DNA of 64,000 nt, from assembly GCF_017352095.1 (NCBI RefSeq), contig NZ_CP071463.1:124001-188000 (forward strand), written 5' to 3'. The notes below the pieces were generated by a model. The model was not told the DNA's origin, ran no database searches, and saw only the letters and a program-made list of their open reading frames with translations. Both the position numbers and the translations under genes were made by a program. Origin of the DNA: Natrinema longum (GTDB lineage: Archaea > Halobacteriota > Halobacteria > Halobacteriales > Natrialbaceae). This document shows, one piece after another, positions 36,561 through 43,871 of this stretch; the stretch's first letter is position 1, and the number at the start of each line of letters is the position of its first letter.

Positions 36561-36581
36561 ACACCCCCGTCGCGTTTGTAA
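36561..36581 (-). repeat. ORB-like element 1
   Basis: On the minus strand the element has TTACA, a CGCGAC core and a five-G run followed by TGT. It is the exact inverted copy of element 3 (36707-36727): all 21 bases match. Confidence 0.85.
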
Positions 36582-36614
36582 GCCGAACTACGTGTGGGGC
36601 CTCTGTTTCACAAC

Positions 36615-36635
36615 ACACCCGTCCCGCGGATGTAA
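36615..36635 (-). repeat. ORB-like element 2 (weaker)
   Basis: Minus-strand element with TTACATCCGCG and a shorter G run (three Gs) before TGT. Same length and orientation as element 1, 33 bp further right. Confidence 0.6.
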
Positions 36636-36687
36636 ATCAGGCTTCGAGAGCGATTCTGCTCCCGAAAAACCCGATATTCTCGTCACC

Positions 36688-36727
36688 CACCCCCGTCCTT
36701 TCACCGTTACAAACGCGACGGGGGTGT
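36688..36727 (+). repeat. ORB-like element 3 with opposing G-string
   Basis: The plus-strand ORB occupies 36707-36727. Immediately left, cacccccgtc (36688-36697) is the exact inverse of gacgggggtg (36717-36726), giving 10-bp arms separated by 19 bp. This makes a symmetric Orc1-binding-like site in the centre of the origin. Confidence 0.8.
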
Positions 36728-36877
36728 GCCCCCATCCGGGAGCACCGAACCAGTCGCTGGCCGCATTCTCGAGTCGGTTTACGCCGACTTCGTGGAAGCG
36801 AGCCCTCGGTGACGGAACGAGCGGCCGATCCGAGTATCGGACACCACAACCGTCCGACCGGCCCGAACAGGGGGAAC

Positions 36878-36898
36878 TTACATCCGCGATGGGGGTGT
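36878..36898 (+). repeat. ORB-like element 4
   Basis: Plus-strand element TTACATCCGCGATGGGGGTGT, matching element 3 at 18 of 21 positions, with the full five-G run. Confidence 0.8.
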
Positions 36899-37148: not shown

Positions 37149-38378
37149 ATGTCCGCCAACGACGATCGAGACCCGCTCTTTCGGTACGACGATCCGGTCT
37201 TCGCCGACGAGCGCCTGCTCGAGATCACGCACCTGCCCGGTCCGGATCGGATCGTCGGTCGTGACGAGCAGATGCAACGGGTTGCGGACGCCCTGAACCC
37301 GGCGATCTTCGGGAGCGAACCCAACCACCTGTTTATCTTCGGCAAGACCGGAACCGGCAAATCGCTCATCTCGCGATCGGTCACCCAGCGGGTGATCACC
37401 GAGGCCGAGCACGACGATATCACGGTCAAGTACGCCTTCATCGACTGTGGCGAACAGAACACGGAAGCCTCCATCGTCAAGACGATCGCCCAGATCGTCA
37501 ACGAACCCGACGCGAGCGGGGTCACCGTCCCCGATCGGGGCCTCGGAACCGGTGACTACTACAAGCGCCTCTGGCAGGCTATCGATCACTGTACCGACGT
37601 CACCATCGTCATCTTGGACGAGATCGACATGCTCGAGGACGACGAAGTACTCCGCAAGCTCTCTCGAGCCGGCGAGAACCGACGGATTTCCGACTCGAGT
37701 ATCGGTATCATCGGCATCTCGAACAAGATCGACTTCCCGGACCACCTCTCCGAACGCGTCAAGTCGAGCCTCTCGCGGGACGAACTCGTCTTCTCGCCGT
37801 ACGATGCCAACCAACTCGTCGAGATCCTCGAGAAGCGCCGCGACGCCTTCCACGACGGCGTCCTCTCCGACGACGTCATCCCGCTGACCGCCGCCCTCGC
37901 CGCCCAGGAACACGGCGACGCGCGCAAGGCGATCGACATCCTCCGGAACGCGGGTCGCATCGCGAAGAAGCGAAACGACACGCGGGTCACCGCGGATCAC
38001 GTCCGTGACGCCAAGGAGAAGACCGAGGCCGACCGGTTCAACGAGTTGATCGAGGGCTCTCCCCAGCAGGCCAAGGCGATCCTCTACTCGCTGACGATCC
38101 TGACCGAAAACAGCTCCGAAAAGGAGTTCCCCACGAAGATCATCTACAACCAGTACAAGGAGGTCGCCCGCCGGCTCGATTTCGACGTGCTCTCCGAGCG
38201 CCGCGTTCAGGAGATCCTTCAGGAACAGAACTTCCTCAACGTCATCCAGTCCGAGCGCGAGGGACGTGGCCGCGGTCGCGGCGCACACGCGAAACACCGG
38301 CTGCTCGAGAACCCCTCGATCGTCAAGAAGGTCCTCCTGCGGGATTCCCGGTTGGCCGTCCTCGAGGACGAGGGGTGA
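37149..38378 (+). CDS. orc1: Orc1/Cdc6 replication initiator
   Basis: The 409-residue AAA+ protein has Walker A GKTGTGKS (residues 65-72), Walker B VILDEIDML (about 155-163), sensor 1 IIGISNKIDF, sensor 2 region GDARKAIDILRNAG, and a C-terminal winged helix (about 300-409). It binds ORB elements to start replication. It is adjacent to ORB repeats on its 5' side, which marks it as the cognate initiator of this origin. Full length and typical for haloarchaeal Orc1 proteins. Confidence 0.95.
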   Translation: MSANDDRDPLFRYDDPVFADERLLEITHLPGPDRIVGRDEQMQRVADALNPAIFGSEPNHLFIFGKTGTGKSLISRSVTQRVITEAEHDDITVKYAFIDCGEQNTEASIVKTIAQIVNEPDASGVTVPDRGLGTGDYYKRLWQAIDHCTDVTIVILDEIDMLEDDEVLRKLSRAGENRRISDSSIGIIGISNKIDFPDHLSERVKSSLSRDELVFSPYDANQLVEILEKRRDAFHDGVLSDDVIPLTAALAAQEHGDARKAIDILRNAGRIAKKRNDTRVTADHVRDAKEKTEADRFNELIEGSPQQAKAILYSLTILTENSSEKEFPTKIIYNQYKEVARRLDFDVLSERRVQEILQEQNFLNVIQSEREGRGRGRGAHAKHRLLENPSIVKKVLLRDSRLAVLEDEG

Positions 38379-38548: not shown

Positions 38549-38558
38549 TTTTATAAAC
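38549..38558 (+). promoter_or_regulatory. TATA-like box of the AMP-synthetase-like gene
   Basis: ttttataaac lies 29-38 nt before the ATG at 38587. The preceding 38437-38548 is unusually AT-rich for this genome. Confidence 0.5.
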
Positions 38559-38586: not shown

Positions 38587-39807
38587 ATGACGAACTTCGT
38601 ACGGGAATTACAATCGGCAGCGATGACGAACACGACGGCGACGGCGGTGGAGTGCGACGAACCGGTGACGTTTTCGCAGCTCTGGTCTGCGACGGACTCG
38701 TTTGCGGGCGGCCTTCAAGACAGTGAGCTCACTGCCGGCGACAGGGTTACCGTCCACCTCTCCGATCCACGCTCGTTTCTCATCGCAGTTTACGGGACGC
38801 TCAGAGCCGGCTGTGTCCCCGTTACGATTCCGGAAGCGTCCGAGAATCGGGACGTCAAACGCGTCGTGGCTGAAACCGAACCGAAGGCCCACGTCGCCGA
38901 TTCGGGCCGCATCATGGCGCTTCTGAACGGTAGCGAATCGTTGCGCCTCGCCGTTATCGTCGACGACGAGGTACGGCTGGGGGTGTCGCTGTCGACGTTT
39001 CTCGAGAACGACGGCATGAACGGCTCGAACTCCCGCACCGGGATCGACGTCGTCCGCCGTGCCGACGACTCGCCGGGCCTGATCGCGTCCCTCGAACGCG
39101 ATGCTCCTGACCCACTCGCCGTCGTCTACACGCACGCGTCCTTGCGAGCTGCTGCCAACGTCGGAACGACGCTGGGGCCAACCGAATCGGACGGCGAGCT
39201 CGAGTCACACCGCAGCGCGCTGTCGCTCTCGAACCCGATCGAACTCATGTACGGGGCGAACGCGACACTTACCGACGGCGGAAGCTATCATCCGATCCCG
39301 GACCCGGATCCGGAAACGATCCGTTCGTTGCTCGTGACGACCGATATCGAGCGGACGTTCGTGACTCCACAGCAGTACCGGGCGCTCCGAGCGAGCGACC
39401 CGTCCGTCGACGAAGGCGAACTCCGTGTCGTCACGCCGCTCTCGACCGCGCTCGATACCGAGGTCCGTGACGGTGGCGATGCCGTTCGTCTCTGTGTGCT
39501 GCCGGAAATCGGCGTCTCGCACGTCAGATCGCCTGTCGACGTCGAAGCGGGACGGCTCGGACGGTCGCTGCCGGGGGTTCGGGCGTGCGTTCTCGAGGAA
39601 GGGGGCAGCGACGAACTCGCCGTGAGTGGGCCGGCACTCATGGATGGCTATTTCGACCGCCCCGTACTGACCGACGAGACGGTCACGACGATCGACGGGG
39701 ACCGCTGGATCGAGACCGGTCTCTCCGTCCAGTCCCGGGACGGGACTATCGACCTCGGGGAGCGAGCGGAAACGGGACGGACGCTTCCGTCGGACGAACG
39801 CCCGTGA
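38587..39807 (+). CDS. Degenerate acyl-adenylate synthetase-like protein (probable pseudoenzyme)
   Basis: The 406-residue protein follows the ANL (acyl-CoA synthetase) layout: a TFSQLWSATDSFAGGLQDSELTAGDRV start, LIAVYGTLRAGCVPVTIP, later GRSLPGVRACVLEEGGSDELAVSGPALMDGYFDRP. But the phosphate loop SGTTGxPKG is replaced by THASLRAAANVG, the TGD motif is WIETGLS, and the C-terminal catalytic-lysine domain is missing (normal length 500-550). It is therefore unlikely to adenylate substrates. Origin-proximal position is notable; the role is unknown. An internal start at 38623 is possible. Confidence 0.7.
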   Translation: MTNFVRELQSAAMTNTTATAVECDEPVTFSQLWSATDSFAGGLQDSELTAGDRVTVHLSDPRSFLIAVYGTLRAGCVPVTIPEASENRDVKRVVAETEPKAHVADSGRIMALLNGSESLRLAVIVDDEVRLGVSLSTFLENDGMNGSNSRTGIDVVRRADDSPGLIASLERDAPDPLAVVYTHASLRAAANVGTTLGPTESDGELESHRSALSLSNPIELMYGANATLTDGGSYHPIPDPDPETIRSLLVTTDIERTFVTPQQYRALRASDPSVDEGELRVVTPLSTALDTEVRDGGDAVRLCVLPEIGVSHVRSPVDVEAGRLGRSLPGVRACVLEEGGSDELAVSGPALMDGYFDRPVLTDETVTTIDGDRWIETGLSVQSRDGTIDLGERAETGRTLPSDERP

Positions 39808-39965
39808 AACGCAACTCGCGGACAGTCACCTTCCGGGACGGCCGTGTCTGTGCGCTCTCGACCCGATTTTAGCCGACGGATGCCGTCGAGGCGGTACCCG
39901 CCCGCGCTGCGTTCCCGATTCGCCGGAACCGCGATACCTTTTTGCCTCGCTTCCACAGACCGGGT

Positions 39966-41159
39966 ATGAACAGCGTCGATGCCGCCGGCCTGGGGATCGG
40001 TGACGACTATCCGCCCCGAATCATGGGCGTGTTGAACGTCAGCGAGGAATCTCCCTACGATCCGAGCGTTTTCGACGATCCCGGCGAGGCGGCCCGCTAC
40101 GTCGACGAGGAACTGATCGACGAGGGTGCCGATATCGTCGACGTCGGCCTCGAGTCGGCGAACAAGCGTTTCGACGTGCTCTCGGCCGACGAGGAACTCG
40201 AGCGGCTTCCGGTTGCGCTCGAGACCATCGAGAGCGTCTCCGGGGACGCCGTCTTCTCGATCGAAACGCGGTACGCCGAGGTGGCCGACGAGGCGCTTTC
40301 CCAGGGGTTCGACATGGTCAACGACATCTGTGGGTTCGCCGACCCGGAGATGCCGACCGTCTGTGAGGACCACGACGTCGCGGTCGCGAAGATGGCGAGC
40401 CCGCCGGACGTCGAACGACCGGGTGCCGTCGAGGAAACCGATTGGGGCTCCCGGAAGTCGCCGGAGTGGGCCTCGCAGGCGGCGTACGTCGATCAGGTCT
40501 ACGAGGCGCTGAAACAGAACGGGCTGACCGAGAAGACGATCGTCGACCCGGCCTTCGGCGGCTGGAGCGAAGCCAAGACCGTCGCCGACGACCACGAGAC
40601 GTTCCGCCGGCTGCGGGAGTTCCGGGCGCTCGGCCGGCCGATGCTGGTTTCGATCAACCGCAAGAACTTCCTGGGCGAAATCGCCGACCGTGAGACCGAC
40701 GAGCGGTTGCCGGTCAGTCTCGCAGCGACCTCGATGGCCGTCGAGCGGGGAGCACACGTGATCCGGACCCACGACGTGGCCGAAACGCGGGATGCAGCCC
40801 TGATCGGAAAGGCGTTTACCGAGCAGGCACGCACGACGGCCGACGGGATCACCGTCTCACGACTCGACGTCACCTCGACACGCGAGTTCCGGGCCCAGCT
40901 CAGGGAACGGGGCGTCGATCCCGCGTTCGCCGACGACTGGCGGAGTCAACTCCTCGAGATCGAGGGTCTCGATCCCGACGCGAGCGATCGATTGATTTCG
41001 ATCGCTGCCGAGCACGGGGCGGTTGTCCAACGCGTGTCTGACGGACGGCTGTTGCTGATGGGATCGACGACAACCGTGTCCGACGTATCAGCCCGAATTG
41101 CCGGCGAAAACGACGATATCGACGCTCTCGGCGAGAAGTTGTCAAAGCTGCTGCGTTAA
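39966..41159 (+). CDS. folP: Dihydropteroate synthase-like protein with C-terminal extension
   Basis: The 397-residue protein has the pterin-binding TIM barrel: PPRIMGVLNVSEESPYDPSVF (cf. GILNVTPDSF), DIVDVGLES (cf. DIGGEST), VNDICGFADPEM, KTIVDPAFGGW and IRTHDVAETRDA at the barrel end. About 120 extra residues follow (280-397), not present in usual FolP. Dihydropteroate synthase joins 4-aminobenzoate and hydroxymethyl-dihydropterin-PP in folate synthesis. An MptE gene for the pterin precursor follows directly, supporting the pathway. The start at 39966 fits; 39942 is an alternative. The DIGGEST change is worth testing. Confidence 0.8.
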   Translation: MNSVDAAGLGIGDDYPPRIMGVLNVSEESPYDPSVFDDPGEAARYVDEELIDEGADIVDVGLESANKRFDVLSADEELERLPVALETIESVSGDAVFSIETRYAEVADEALSQGFDMVNDICGFADPEMPTVCEDHDVAVAKMASPPDVERPGAVEETDWGSRKSPEWASQAAYVDQVYEALKQNGLTEKTIVDPAFGGWSEAKTVADDHETFRRLREFRALGRPMLVSINRKNFLGEIADRETDERLPVSLAATSMAVERGAHVIRTHDVAETRDAALIGKAFTEQARTTADGITVSRLDVTSTREFRAQLRERGVDPAFADDWRSQLLEIEGLDPDASDRLISIAAEHGAVVQRVSDGRLLLMGSTTTVSDVSARIAGENDDIDALGEKLSKLLR

Positions 41160-41200: not shown

Positions 41201-41251
41201 GCCGGGCTGCCTCCCGGGTAGGGGTACTTTGGAGGCGAATCCCGGCCCACA
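41201..41251 (+). ncRNA. Candidate structured RNA hairpin between folP and mptE
   Basis: The transcript strand folds as GCCGGG (41201-41206), inner GCCTCC (41209-41214), a 16-nt loop, GGAGGC (41231-41236), and CCCGGC (41241-41246), followed by ACA at 41249-41251. Two stacked 6-bp stems with a small internal loop and a trailing ACA recall an H/ACA guide half, but the internal pocket is short. It may equally be an attenuator or RNA-processing site in the folP-mptE transcript. Confidence 0.35.
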
Positions 41252-41354
41252 ACACGGAATTATTGTGCTCTTACGTTGCCCAGTGACGTCTGGGCCGTCT
41301 GGCCCACCGGAGACCGAACACACAAACGGACCGGGCACCGAGTACGCAGCGAGT

Positions 41355-42056
41355 ATGGAGTTCGACGAGTGGGAGCCCGTCTACGAGGCGATTCTCGACG
41401 ACTTCGGATACGACCGGGCCGGCGACGAGCGGGGGCGAGATCTCCTCGCATCCCTTCTGGAGGCGTCGTTCGATCCGACCGAGCTGGCGATCGGACCCGA
41501 CACGACCGTCGCCGTGGCGGGTGCCGGCCCGTCCCTCGAGAGCGATCGGGCCCTCGAGCGGGCACGAGCGGCGGAGTTCGTCGTCGCCGCGTCGACCGCC
41601 GTCGACACGCTCGCGAGCCACGGGATCGACGCCGACTGCATGGTGACCGACCTCGACAAGAATCCGGGCACCGTCGAACGACTCACGACGGACGGCGTCC
41701 CGGTCGCGATCCACGGGCACGGTGACAACCTCGATGCGATCCGGACCGTCGTTCCGAACTGTGACCACGCGTACGTGCTCCCGACCACCCAGACCACGCC
41801 GCGTGGCCCGGTCCGTAACGTCGGCGGGTTCACCGACGGCGATCGAGCGGCGTTTCTCGCCGATCACCTCGGTGCCGGCCACCTCTCGTTCGTCGGCTGG
41901 GATTTCGACGATCCCGCCGTCGAGCCGACGAAAGCGTGCAAACTCGAGTGGGCCGAGCGCCTCCTCTACTGGCTCGAGTCGCGCCGCGGCGACCGGTTCG
42001 CGGTACTCGACGGACGGCGAGACGGGATCGAGACGATCGGGATCCCGATCGAGTAA
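41355..42056 (+). CDS. mptE: MptE-type 6-hydroxymethylpterin pyrophosphokinase
   Basis: The 233-residue protein is the archaeal DUF115-family enzyme: TTVAVAGAGPSLESD (nucleotide-binding loop, about residue 52), VVAASTAVDTLASHGIDADCMVTDLDKNPG, VPVAIHGHGDNLDAI, and GFTDGDRAAFLADHLGAGHLSFVGWDFDDPA. It phosphorylates 6-hydroxymethyl-7,8-dihydropterin to the diphosphate used by FolP. The start at 41355 (MEFDEW) is chosen because the fold starts here; the ORF runs to 41229 without conserved sequence. Same direction as folP, 195 bp away. Confidence 0.9.
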   Translation: MEFDEWEPVYEAILDDFGYDRAGDERGRDLLASLLEASFDPTELAIGPDTTVAVAGAGPSLESDRALERARAAEFVVAASTAVDTLASHGIDADCMVTDLDKNPGTVERLTTDGVPVAIHGHGDNLDAIRTVVPNCDHAYVLPTTQTTPRGPVRNVGGFTDGDRAAFLADHLGAGHLSFVGWDFDDPAVEPTKACKLEWAERLLYWLESRRGDRFAVLDGRRDGIETIGIPIE

Positions 42057-42098
42057 CGCCCCTCCGTGGCGTCGGCGATCGAGGACGGACCGTCGCTG

Positions 42099-42293
42099 TC
42101 ACTCGATCCGGTACTCGACGATGTCGCGACAGCCACACGACGGACACGGGGAGATCGTCGACTCGAGCGTCGTCCCACAGCGCCGGCACTCCTCGATGAC
42201 CGTCGGCTCGTCGCTCCGGCGGAAGATCGCGCTGAACGCCTTTCGTATCGCCGATCGCGTCGTAGTGTCGGACCGGCTCTCTCGTCCGCCCAT
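42099..42293 (-). CDS. Small zinc-ribbon protein
   Basis: The 64-residue protein has an Arg/Ser-rich N-terminal half and a C-terminal zinc ribbon CRRCGTTLES...CPSCGC (residues about 36-54) ending DIVEYRIE. Two CxxC knuckles and good coding bias support a real gene. It is on the minus strand, convergent with mptE. Function unknown; nucleic-acid binding is possible. Confidence 0.75.
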   Translation of the reverse strand: MGGRESRSDTTTRSAIRKAFSAIFRRSDEPTVIEECRRCGTTLESTISPCPSCGCRDIVEYRIE

Positions 42294-42461
42294 GATCGCT
42301 CGAACGCTGATATCACTGTTCGTTATTGTCTCGATAACCGATACAACGATCCGTTGCTCGGGCCGGATGCCGTCGCACAGTCCGGCTCCCGTCGGCGAAT
42401 CACTGCCGTTGGCTCGCCGTTAGCCCCTACGCTTTCGGTTCTCGAGTGCCCGAGTTCGACC

Positions 42462-43871
42462 GTGATCGTTCACTGGCACCGCCGGGATCTCCGGCCCAGC
42501 GACAACCGCGGGCTCGCCCGCGCCGCGGCGAGCGACGAGTCGGTCGTTTCGCTGTTCGTTCTCGATCCGACCGTCCTCGAGCATGCATCGCCGGTCCGCG
42601 TCGCGTGTCTGCTCGAGGCGCTCGATGCCCTCCGAGAGTGGTACCGGGATCAGGGAAGCGACCTCGTCGTCGGTCGTGGCGAGGCGAGTCGGGTCGTCCC
42701 GGAGCGAGCAGCGGCGTACGATGCGGACACAGTCGTCTGGAACGCGGATTACAGCGGTCTGGCTCGGGACCGCGATCGGGCGGTTCGGGACGCACTCGAG
42801 GACGACGGGATCGAATCCGAATCGGTTCACGACGCCGTTCATCACGAACCGGGATCGATTACGCCGAATCAGGGCGAGCACTACTCGGTGTTTTCCTATT
42901 TCTGGAAGAAGTGGCGCGATCGGGACAAGCGAGCGCCGGTCGAGGAGCCGGCCGCCACGGACCTCGCGGCCGTGTCGGGCGAACCGATACCAACGCTTGC
43001 TGATCTGGGGTTCGACGAGCCCGAAGCGACGCCGCCGACGGTGACGACGGCGGCGGCTCGAGAGCGGGTCGCCGACTTCTGTTCGGGGCCGATCTACCGC
43101 TATGCCGACCAGCGCGAGTATCCCGCTGCCGGTGGCACCTCGCGGCTCTCCCCACATCTCAAGTGGGGAACGATCGGGCCACGGGAGCTGTACGCGGCGA
43201 CGGAGCGAGCCACGGCACGCGCCGAGTCCGAGGACGCCCGCGAGAGCGTCCGTTCGTTCCAGCGCCAGCTCGCCTGGCGGGAGTTCTACGCGCACGTCCT
43301 CCGATACAATCCCGAGACCGTCGCCGAGAACTTCAGCGGGTACGAAAACGAGATCGAGTGGCGCGACGACCCCGACGAACTCGCGGCCTGGCAGGCCGGA
43401 GAGACCGGCTACCCGATCGTCGACGCGGGGATGCGCCAGCTACACGCGGAGGGATGGATGCACAACCGCGTGCGGATGCTCGTCGCCGCCTTCCTGACCA
43501 AGGATCTCCTGGTCGACTGGCGGGCGGGGTACGACTGGTTCCGGCGAAAGTTGGCGGACCACGACACCGCAAACGACGTCGGCGGGTGGCAGTGGGCGGC
43601 TTCGACCGGGACCGACGCACAGCCGTACTTCCGGGTGTTCAACCCGATGAAACAGGGTCGCGAGTACGATCCCGACGCCGAATACGTCCGCGAGTACGTT
43701 CCGGAACTCGCCGACGCGAGTGCCGACGACATCCACGGCTGGCACGACCTCGAGCAGGCCGAGCGCGAGCGGATCGCGGCCGACTATCCGGCACCGATCG
43801 TCGACCACGCCGACCGACGGGAGCGGGCGATCGACACCTTCGAGCGGGCCCGCGGCGAGGCCTCGGAGTAA
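42462..43871 (+). CDS. phr: DNA photolyase (class I, cryptochrome/photolyase family)
   Basis: The 469-residue protein starts at GTG 42462 with VIVHWHRRDLRPSDNRGL, the typical N-terminus, so the longer ORF (to 42066) is rejected. Visible: antenna domain (residues 1-130), FAD-binding core with SRLSPHLKWGTIGPRELY, the DLLVDWRAGYDWF and DHDTANDVGGWQWAASTGTDAQPYFRVFNP segments (FAD pocket). The DDAN-type D-T-A-N-D motif and Trp tail fit CPD photolyases. It repairs UV pyrimidine dimers using blue light, important in sunlit brines. Confidence 0.95.
   Translation: MIVHWHRRDLRPSDNRGLARAAASDESVVSLFVLDPTVLEHASPVRVACLLEALDALREWYRDQGSDLVVGRGEASRVVPERAAAYDADTVVWNADYSGLARDRDRAVRDALEDDGIESESVHDAVHHEPGSITPNQGEHYSVFSYFWKKWRDRDKRAPVEEPAATDLAAVSGEPIPTLADLGFDEPEATPPTVTTAAARERVADFCSGPIYRYADQREYPAAGGTSRLSPHLKWGTIGPRELYAATERATARAESEDARESVRSFQRQLAWREFYAHVLRYNPETVAENFSGYENEIEWRDDPDELAAWQAGETGYPIVDAGMRQLHAEGWMHNRVRMLVAAFLTKDLLVDWRAGYDWFRRKLADHDTANDVGGWQWAASTGTDAQPYFRVFNPMKQGREYDPDAEYVREYVPELADASADDIHGWHDLEQAERERIAADYPAPIVDHADRRERAIDTFERARGEASE

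Follow-up and report, generated by a model that had tools for sequence, protein, structure and literature searches.

A conserved, predicted pseudoenzyme of the ANL superfamily encoded beside the oriC1 initiator gene in Natrialbaceae

ANL enzymes, which form acyl or aryl adenylates, constitute one of the largest ligase superfamilies. Among solved structures, the best match to the predicted fold of the protein described here, termed psi-ANL, is the N-domain of FadD13/FACL13 of M. tuberculosis (5zrn, 3t5b; Z 41.1, rmsd 2.6, 369 residues) at 19% identity, the solved FadD13 construct being the N-domain alone, separated artificially from an enzyme that is active. By phylogeny, its neighbours are intact FadD-like haloarchaeal ANL enzymes (e.g. 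G000:C1:1616857 and a 528-aa protein of G041), designated the 'MTNLV' clade, which share with psi-ANL an N-terminus of the form M-T-N-hydrophobic-V, the A1/A2 region, the A5 glutamate and the overall N-domain. However, the 'MTNLV' enzymes possess a P-loop (TSGTTGxPK), the TGD motif, the hinge and a C-domain with the catalytic lysine (PRTTTGKVQK), all of which psi-ANL lacks, whereas psi-ANL has a unique motif that the 'MTNLV' enzymes are missing. In the open-access papers that were searched we found no report of ANL pseudoenzymes in haloarchaea or of the psi-ANL family, which is not proof of their absence.

The psi-ANL gene is located in a 64,000-nt stretch of Natrinema longum DNA (the window), where it lies at the main replication origin, downstream of an oriC1-type orc1 gene and upstream of two pterin-related genes:

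36561-36898, mixed strands: oriC1 ORB-like repeats with G-strings, inverted, 5' of orc1 (36561-36581, minus; 36615-36635, minus; 36707-36727, plus; 36878-36898, plus)
37149-38378, plus strand: orc1/cdc6, oriC1-type initiator (TIGR02928, E=8e-124)
38550-38557, plus strand: TATA box TTTATAAA, seen in the sequence 30 nt 5' of the psi-ANL ATG
38587-39807, plus strand: psi-ANL, predicted 406-aa pseudoenzyme consisting of an ANL (AMP-binding) N-domain (PF00501, orthologues, predicted fold, pN/pS)
39942-41159, plus strand: folP (dihydropteroate synthase), the next gene 3' of psi-ANL (TIGR01496, E=1.5e-52)
41229-42056, plus strand: mptE-like gene (6-hydroxymethylpterin diphosphokinase; PF01973)

The psi-ANL reading frame starts with ATG and encodes 406 residues, the stop codon being counted within the coordinates. 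The position next to the origin, as originally proposed, is borne out by the ORB-like repeats upstream of orc1, whose type, like the conserved haloarchaeal oriC1 itself, has been described before (PMC3528665). Such repeats were found only upstream of orc1; a scan of the interval between orc1 and psi-ANL yielded no ORB-like repeat, just AT-rich promoter sequence. A TATA-like element occurs near the same spot, just 5' of the gene, in most Natrinema orthologues. Its distance of 30 nt from the ATG implies an own short or leaderless transcript, and psi-ANL is therefore most likely transcribed independently. Beyond the mptE-like gene, a small zinc-ribbon-like ORF is present on the minus strand (42066-42340; ...CRRCGTTLESTISPCPSCGCRDIVEYRIE), which is apparently conserved at this position in relatives. 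On the plus strand, a photolyase ORF of 601 aa (42066-43871) is called too long and runs across it; photolyase homology begins at about residue 128.

Several lines of evidence assign psi-ANL to the ANL superfamily. It matches the Pfam AMP-binding model PF00501 in two stretches with 75.9 bits (cut-off 29.9; E=3.4e-21), and NCBIfam and PDB-profile matches agree with this identity; matches to many acyl-CoA ligase models are far below the curated cut-offs. Structural modeling yielded a complete ANL N-domain (pLDDT 78, pTM 0.85), and the top Foldseek and VIA-align matches listed are ANL proteins. This model leans on an input alignment that includes distant ANL proteins, among them five intact ANL sequences. 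Prediction from psi-ANL homologues alone gave no usable fold (pLDDT 39), and the model therefore borrows from the superfamily. Based on the profile match and the N-domain fold, psi-ANL belongs to the ANL superfamily by descent, and the retention of the ANL fold, which the original prediction had claimed, is corroborated by structure prediction.

Orthologues were identified in 28 of 125 Natrialbaceae genomes, distributed over ten genera including Natrinema, Natronorubrum and Halopiger, and another family contains a few remote members (G058, G174). G108 is assigned to the same species, and its copy is 94% identical. All orthologues that were read are truncated and none possesses a P-loop. No relative of psi-ANL turned up in viral contigs, whether by a pattern scan or by a scan that used an intact relative. 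When intact enzymes are included in the tree, psi-ANL forms one clade (SH-aLRT 98) with the 'MTNLV' clade as its neighbour. The family goes back to 'MTNLV' acyl-CoA synthetases of haloarchaea; it arose once and was inherited largely vertically. Together with three other truncated proteins, psi-ANL is separated from the intact 'MTNLV' enzymes with an SH-aLRT of 99, at a point where long branches meet; a second truncated set (G018/G023, G098) joins psi-ANL there. Like psi-ANL, the proteins of this set consist of the N-domain only, have lost the P-loop and end at the A8 hinge, but they are encoded at other loci and have a different insertion before the former P-loop. In G018 and G023, the only two of the 125 genomes that have this type and both lacking the psi-ANL copy at oriC1, the P-loop-less N-domain comprises 436 residues and ends at the A8 hinge (L054:8377-9687 and L055:8858-10168, minus strand); its gene lies about 19 bp 3' of a lactate-permease-like gene, with a large dehydrogenase-like ORF nearby. 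The G098 protein (L144:3985-5223, minus strand) is a truncated N-domain of 412 residues ending in GYVYRVED, and its gene is divergent from a cstA-like transporter gene.

Alignment with intact haloarchaeal ANL enzymes, 24 in number, located the following elements:

39007-39048, plus strand: family motif NDGMNGSNSRTGID, residues 141-154, just before the former P-loop
39088-39120, plus strand: former phosphate loop (A3), residues 168-178
39493-39513, plus strand: A5 equivalent, YGxTE changed to xxPE[TI]G, Glu307 kept
39703-39723, plus strand: A7 equivalent, TGD changed to TGx

Throughout the aligned members, the A3 consensus [ST]SG[ST]TGxPK is replaced: YTSGTTGxPKG has become, for example, SLERDAPDPLA or YVDRDEHPPVA, and the glycine, serine, threonine and lysine residues of the loop are all substituted. 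The phosphate loop is thus lost, as originally claimed, through substitution and not deletion; a precise excision is ruled out by the length of the region, which is unchanged relative to intact relatives in nearly all members, a few having insertions there. Similarly, the supposed loss of TGD applies to the aspartate, which in active enzymes contacts the ATP ribose, while T377 and G378 survive. The A5 glutamate is kept in most members, and His183 is also retained. The C-terminal domain, including the hinge, A8-A10 and the catalytic lysine, is absent in cis from all members, which have nothing past the A7/A8 region and vary in their C-termini, so that the claim of its complete loss holds; the nearest intact paralogues keep the P-loop, TGD and C-domain. 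All 15 PF13193 matches in the genome sit in frames of at least 536 aa, and since no free-standing C-domain was found among them, a split enzyme served in trans is rejected. With the P-loop, the A7 aspartate and the C-domain gone, adenylation by the known mechanism is very unlikely, and the protein would be expected to be inactive in vitro. The protein keeps the folded core, the A5 glutamate and some of the A7 strand that faces the nucleotide, although these remaining pocket residues might serve a structural purpose. Taken together, these features make it highly probable that psi-ANL is a pseudoenzyme.

Adjacent to the former P-loop, psi-ANL has a new conserved loop, GMNGSNSRTGID. The motif NDGMNGSNSRTGID in this region is partly an insertion, being gapped in most intact relatives and absent from intact enzymes. 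R150 and G152 are present in 27 of the 27 members compared, and N141, G143, N145, T151 and I153 in at least 93%. Judged from the alignment, this family-specific motif is the best sign that a function may have been acquired.

The family is under purifying selection despite the loss of the catalytic residues. In six close pairs, pN/pS was 0.26, 0.30, 0.34, 0.24, 0.18 and 0.26 (one-sided p 4e-5 to 2e-26), and no internal stop occurs in any orthologue, whereas neutral simulation to 35% divergence, which is that between the copies of G000 and G013, produced a mean of 4.2 stops and no stop-free run out of 200. A GC3 of 0.77 further agrees with an intact coding character. Thus, psi-ANL is not decaying, and it was rightly predicted to be a conserved, apparently non-catalytic ligase-like protein. 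Constraint is relaxed, as the NG86 omega of psi-ANL (0.15-0.42; twelve pairs) exceeds that of folP (0.08-0.21) in most pairs and lies far above that of orc1 (<0.03).

We consider it the best explanation, with moderate confidence, that psi-ANL is a conserved pseudoenzyme beside oriC1, dispensable, and regulatory or ligand-binding in acyl-CoA metabolism. It represents the N-terminal adenylation core of an 'MTNLV' haloarchaeal acyl-CoA synthetase in which both the C-terminal domain and the loop that binds the ATP phosphates have been lost. It might act in acyl-CoA or fatty-acid metabolism, for example by holding an acyl or adenylate ligand that it does not turn over, or as the partner of an active acyl-CoA synthetase. 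The protein may accordingly be a regulator, a ligand binder or a scaffold; a regulatory mechanism in acyl-CoA metabolism in particular is put forward tentatively. Acyl-CoA or carboxylate metabolism appears the more likely field because the parent clade consists of acyl-CoA synthetases and the second truncated set adjoins carboxylate-transporter-like genes.

The original prediction instead envisaged a replication-linked sensor of acyl-CoA or nucleotide state. On this reading, psi-ANL would bind one of these ligands and influence Orc1 or the firing of oriC1. What points in this direction is the address of the gene, and the link is weak. Synteny with orc1 is indeed kept: psi-ANL lies directly 3' of an oriC1-type orc1 in 26 of the 28 orthologues, the exceptions being G066 and G146 (in G025 the adjacency is seen up to a contig break), and it remains beside orc1 in G070 and G124 although the next gene there is not folP. 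Neither outcome that had been named as refuting the original prediction, orthologues missing beside orc1 or a dN/dS close to one, was observed. However, the whole oriC1 neighbourhood is syntenic among haloarchaea in general (PMC3528665), and folP, mptE and the upstream genes are kept near oriC1 about as well as psi-ANL. Further points against a sensor are the gene's own TATA-like element, the lack of ORBs between it and orc1, and the position of homologues elsewhere in G066, G146, G058 and G174, where the most divergent members adjoin radA-like, thi4-like or other genes. The most divergent of these (L111:6858-8102, G066; about 34%) precedes a radA-like gene by about 1.3 kb.

In addition, psi-ANL was repeatedly lost, about six to eight times, with orc1 and folP intact and orc1 97-99% identical across the genus. 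Sixteen Natrinema genomes lack the gene and have an orc1-folP spacing of 32-249 bp. Mapped onto a 41-genome tree of orc1+folP, its presence and absence requires eight changes, six of them forced by well-supported branches. Parsimony alone cannot separate gain from loss; the orc1-folP gaps of G001 and G014 (L056, L063) contain 3' remnants of psi-ANL (about 69-83% identical, E to 5e-11), and the losses there therefore occurred by deletion. We interpret the remaining changes as losses as well, given that Natrinema stays together in the psi-ANL tree and that the gene never differs in position. From regional synteny and repeated loss it follows that the adjacency is old and probably passively kept, and that psi-ANL is dispensable; it would sit beside oriC1 because the region is ancestral and rarely rearranged. 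Altogether, a replication-linked sensor appears improbable. The more elaborate version, in which an oriC1-encoded nucleotide- or acyl-CoA-binding pseudoenzyme would tune Orc1 or origin firing to the lipid or energy state in Natrialbaceae and gene loss would rewire this control in individual lineages, is more doubtful still.

It might also be argued that a C-terminally truncated ligase is simply eroding as a slowly decaying pseudogene, since the gene has been lost repeatedly and left remnants in sister genomes, its omega is relaxed compared to that of its neighbours and its C-terminus is variable. This is very improbable in view of the low pN/pS in six independent close pairs and a specific motif strongly conserved across genera; we reject it on the pN/pS values and the stop-free orthologues. 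Hardly credible is an enzyme with changed chemistry, whose core would bind a nucleotide or acyl donor without P-loop or C-domain or would borrow a C-domain in trans: the retained Glu307, Thr377-Gly378 and His183 would fit, but the P-loop, the A7 aspartate, the A8 hinge and the A10 lysine are all gone, and the genome encodes no free-standing PF13193 domain. Equally implausible is a folate or pterin link in which psi-ANL serves the downstream folP-mptE genes. It directly precedes folP in 24 of the 28 members, but folP retains a conserved upstream element of its own whether psi-ANL is there or not and, in G070 and G124, psi-ANL stays with orc1 where folP does not adjoin.

Most probably, psi-ANL is a new pseudoenzyme family within a known superfamily. 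Automatic annotation would label its members acyl-CoA ligases, which should be taken as a warning. As an adenylation core on its own, selected across ten genera, psi-ANL offers a clean case for what a non-catalytic ANL core does, and its natural presence or absence in the orc1-folP interval of closely related genomes provides ready-made controls for testing an origin-linked role.
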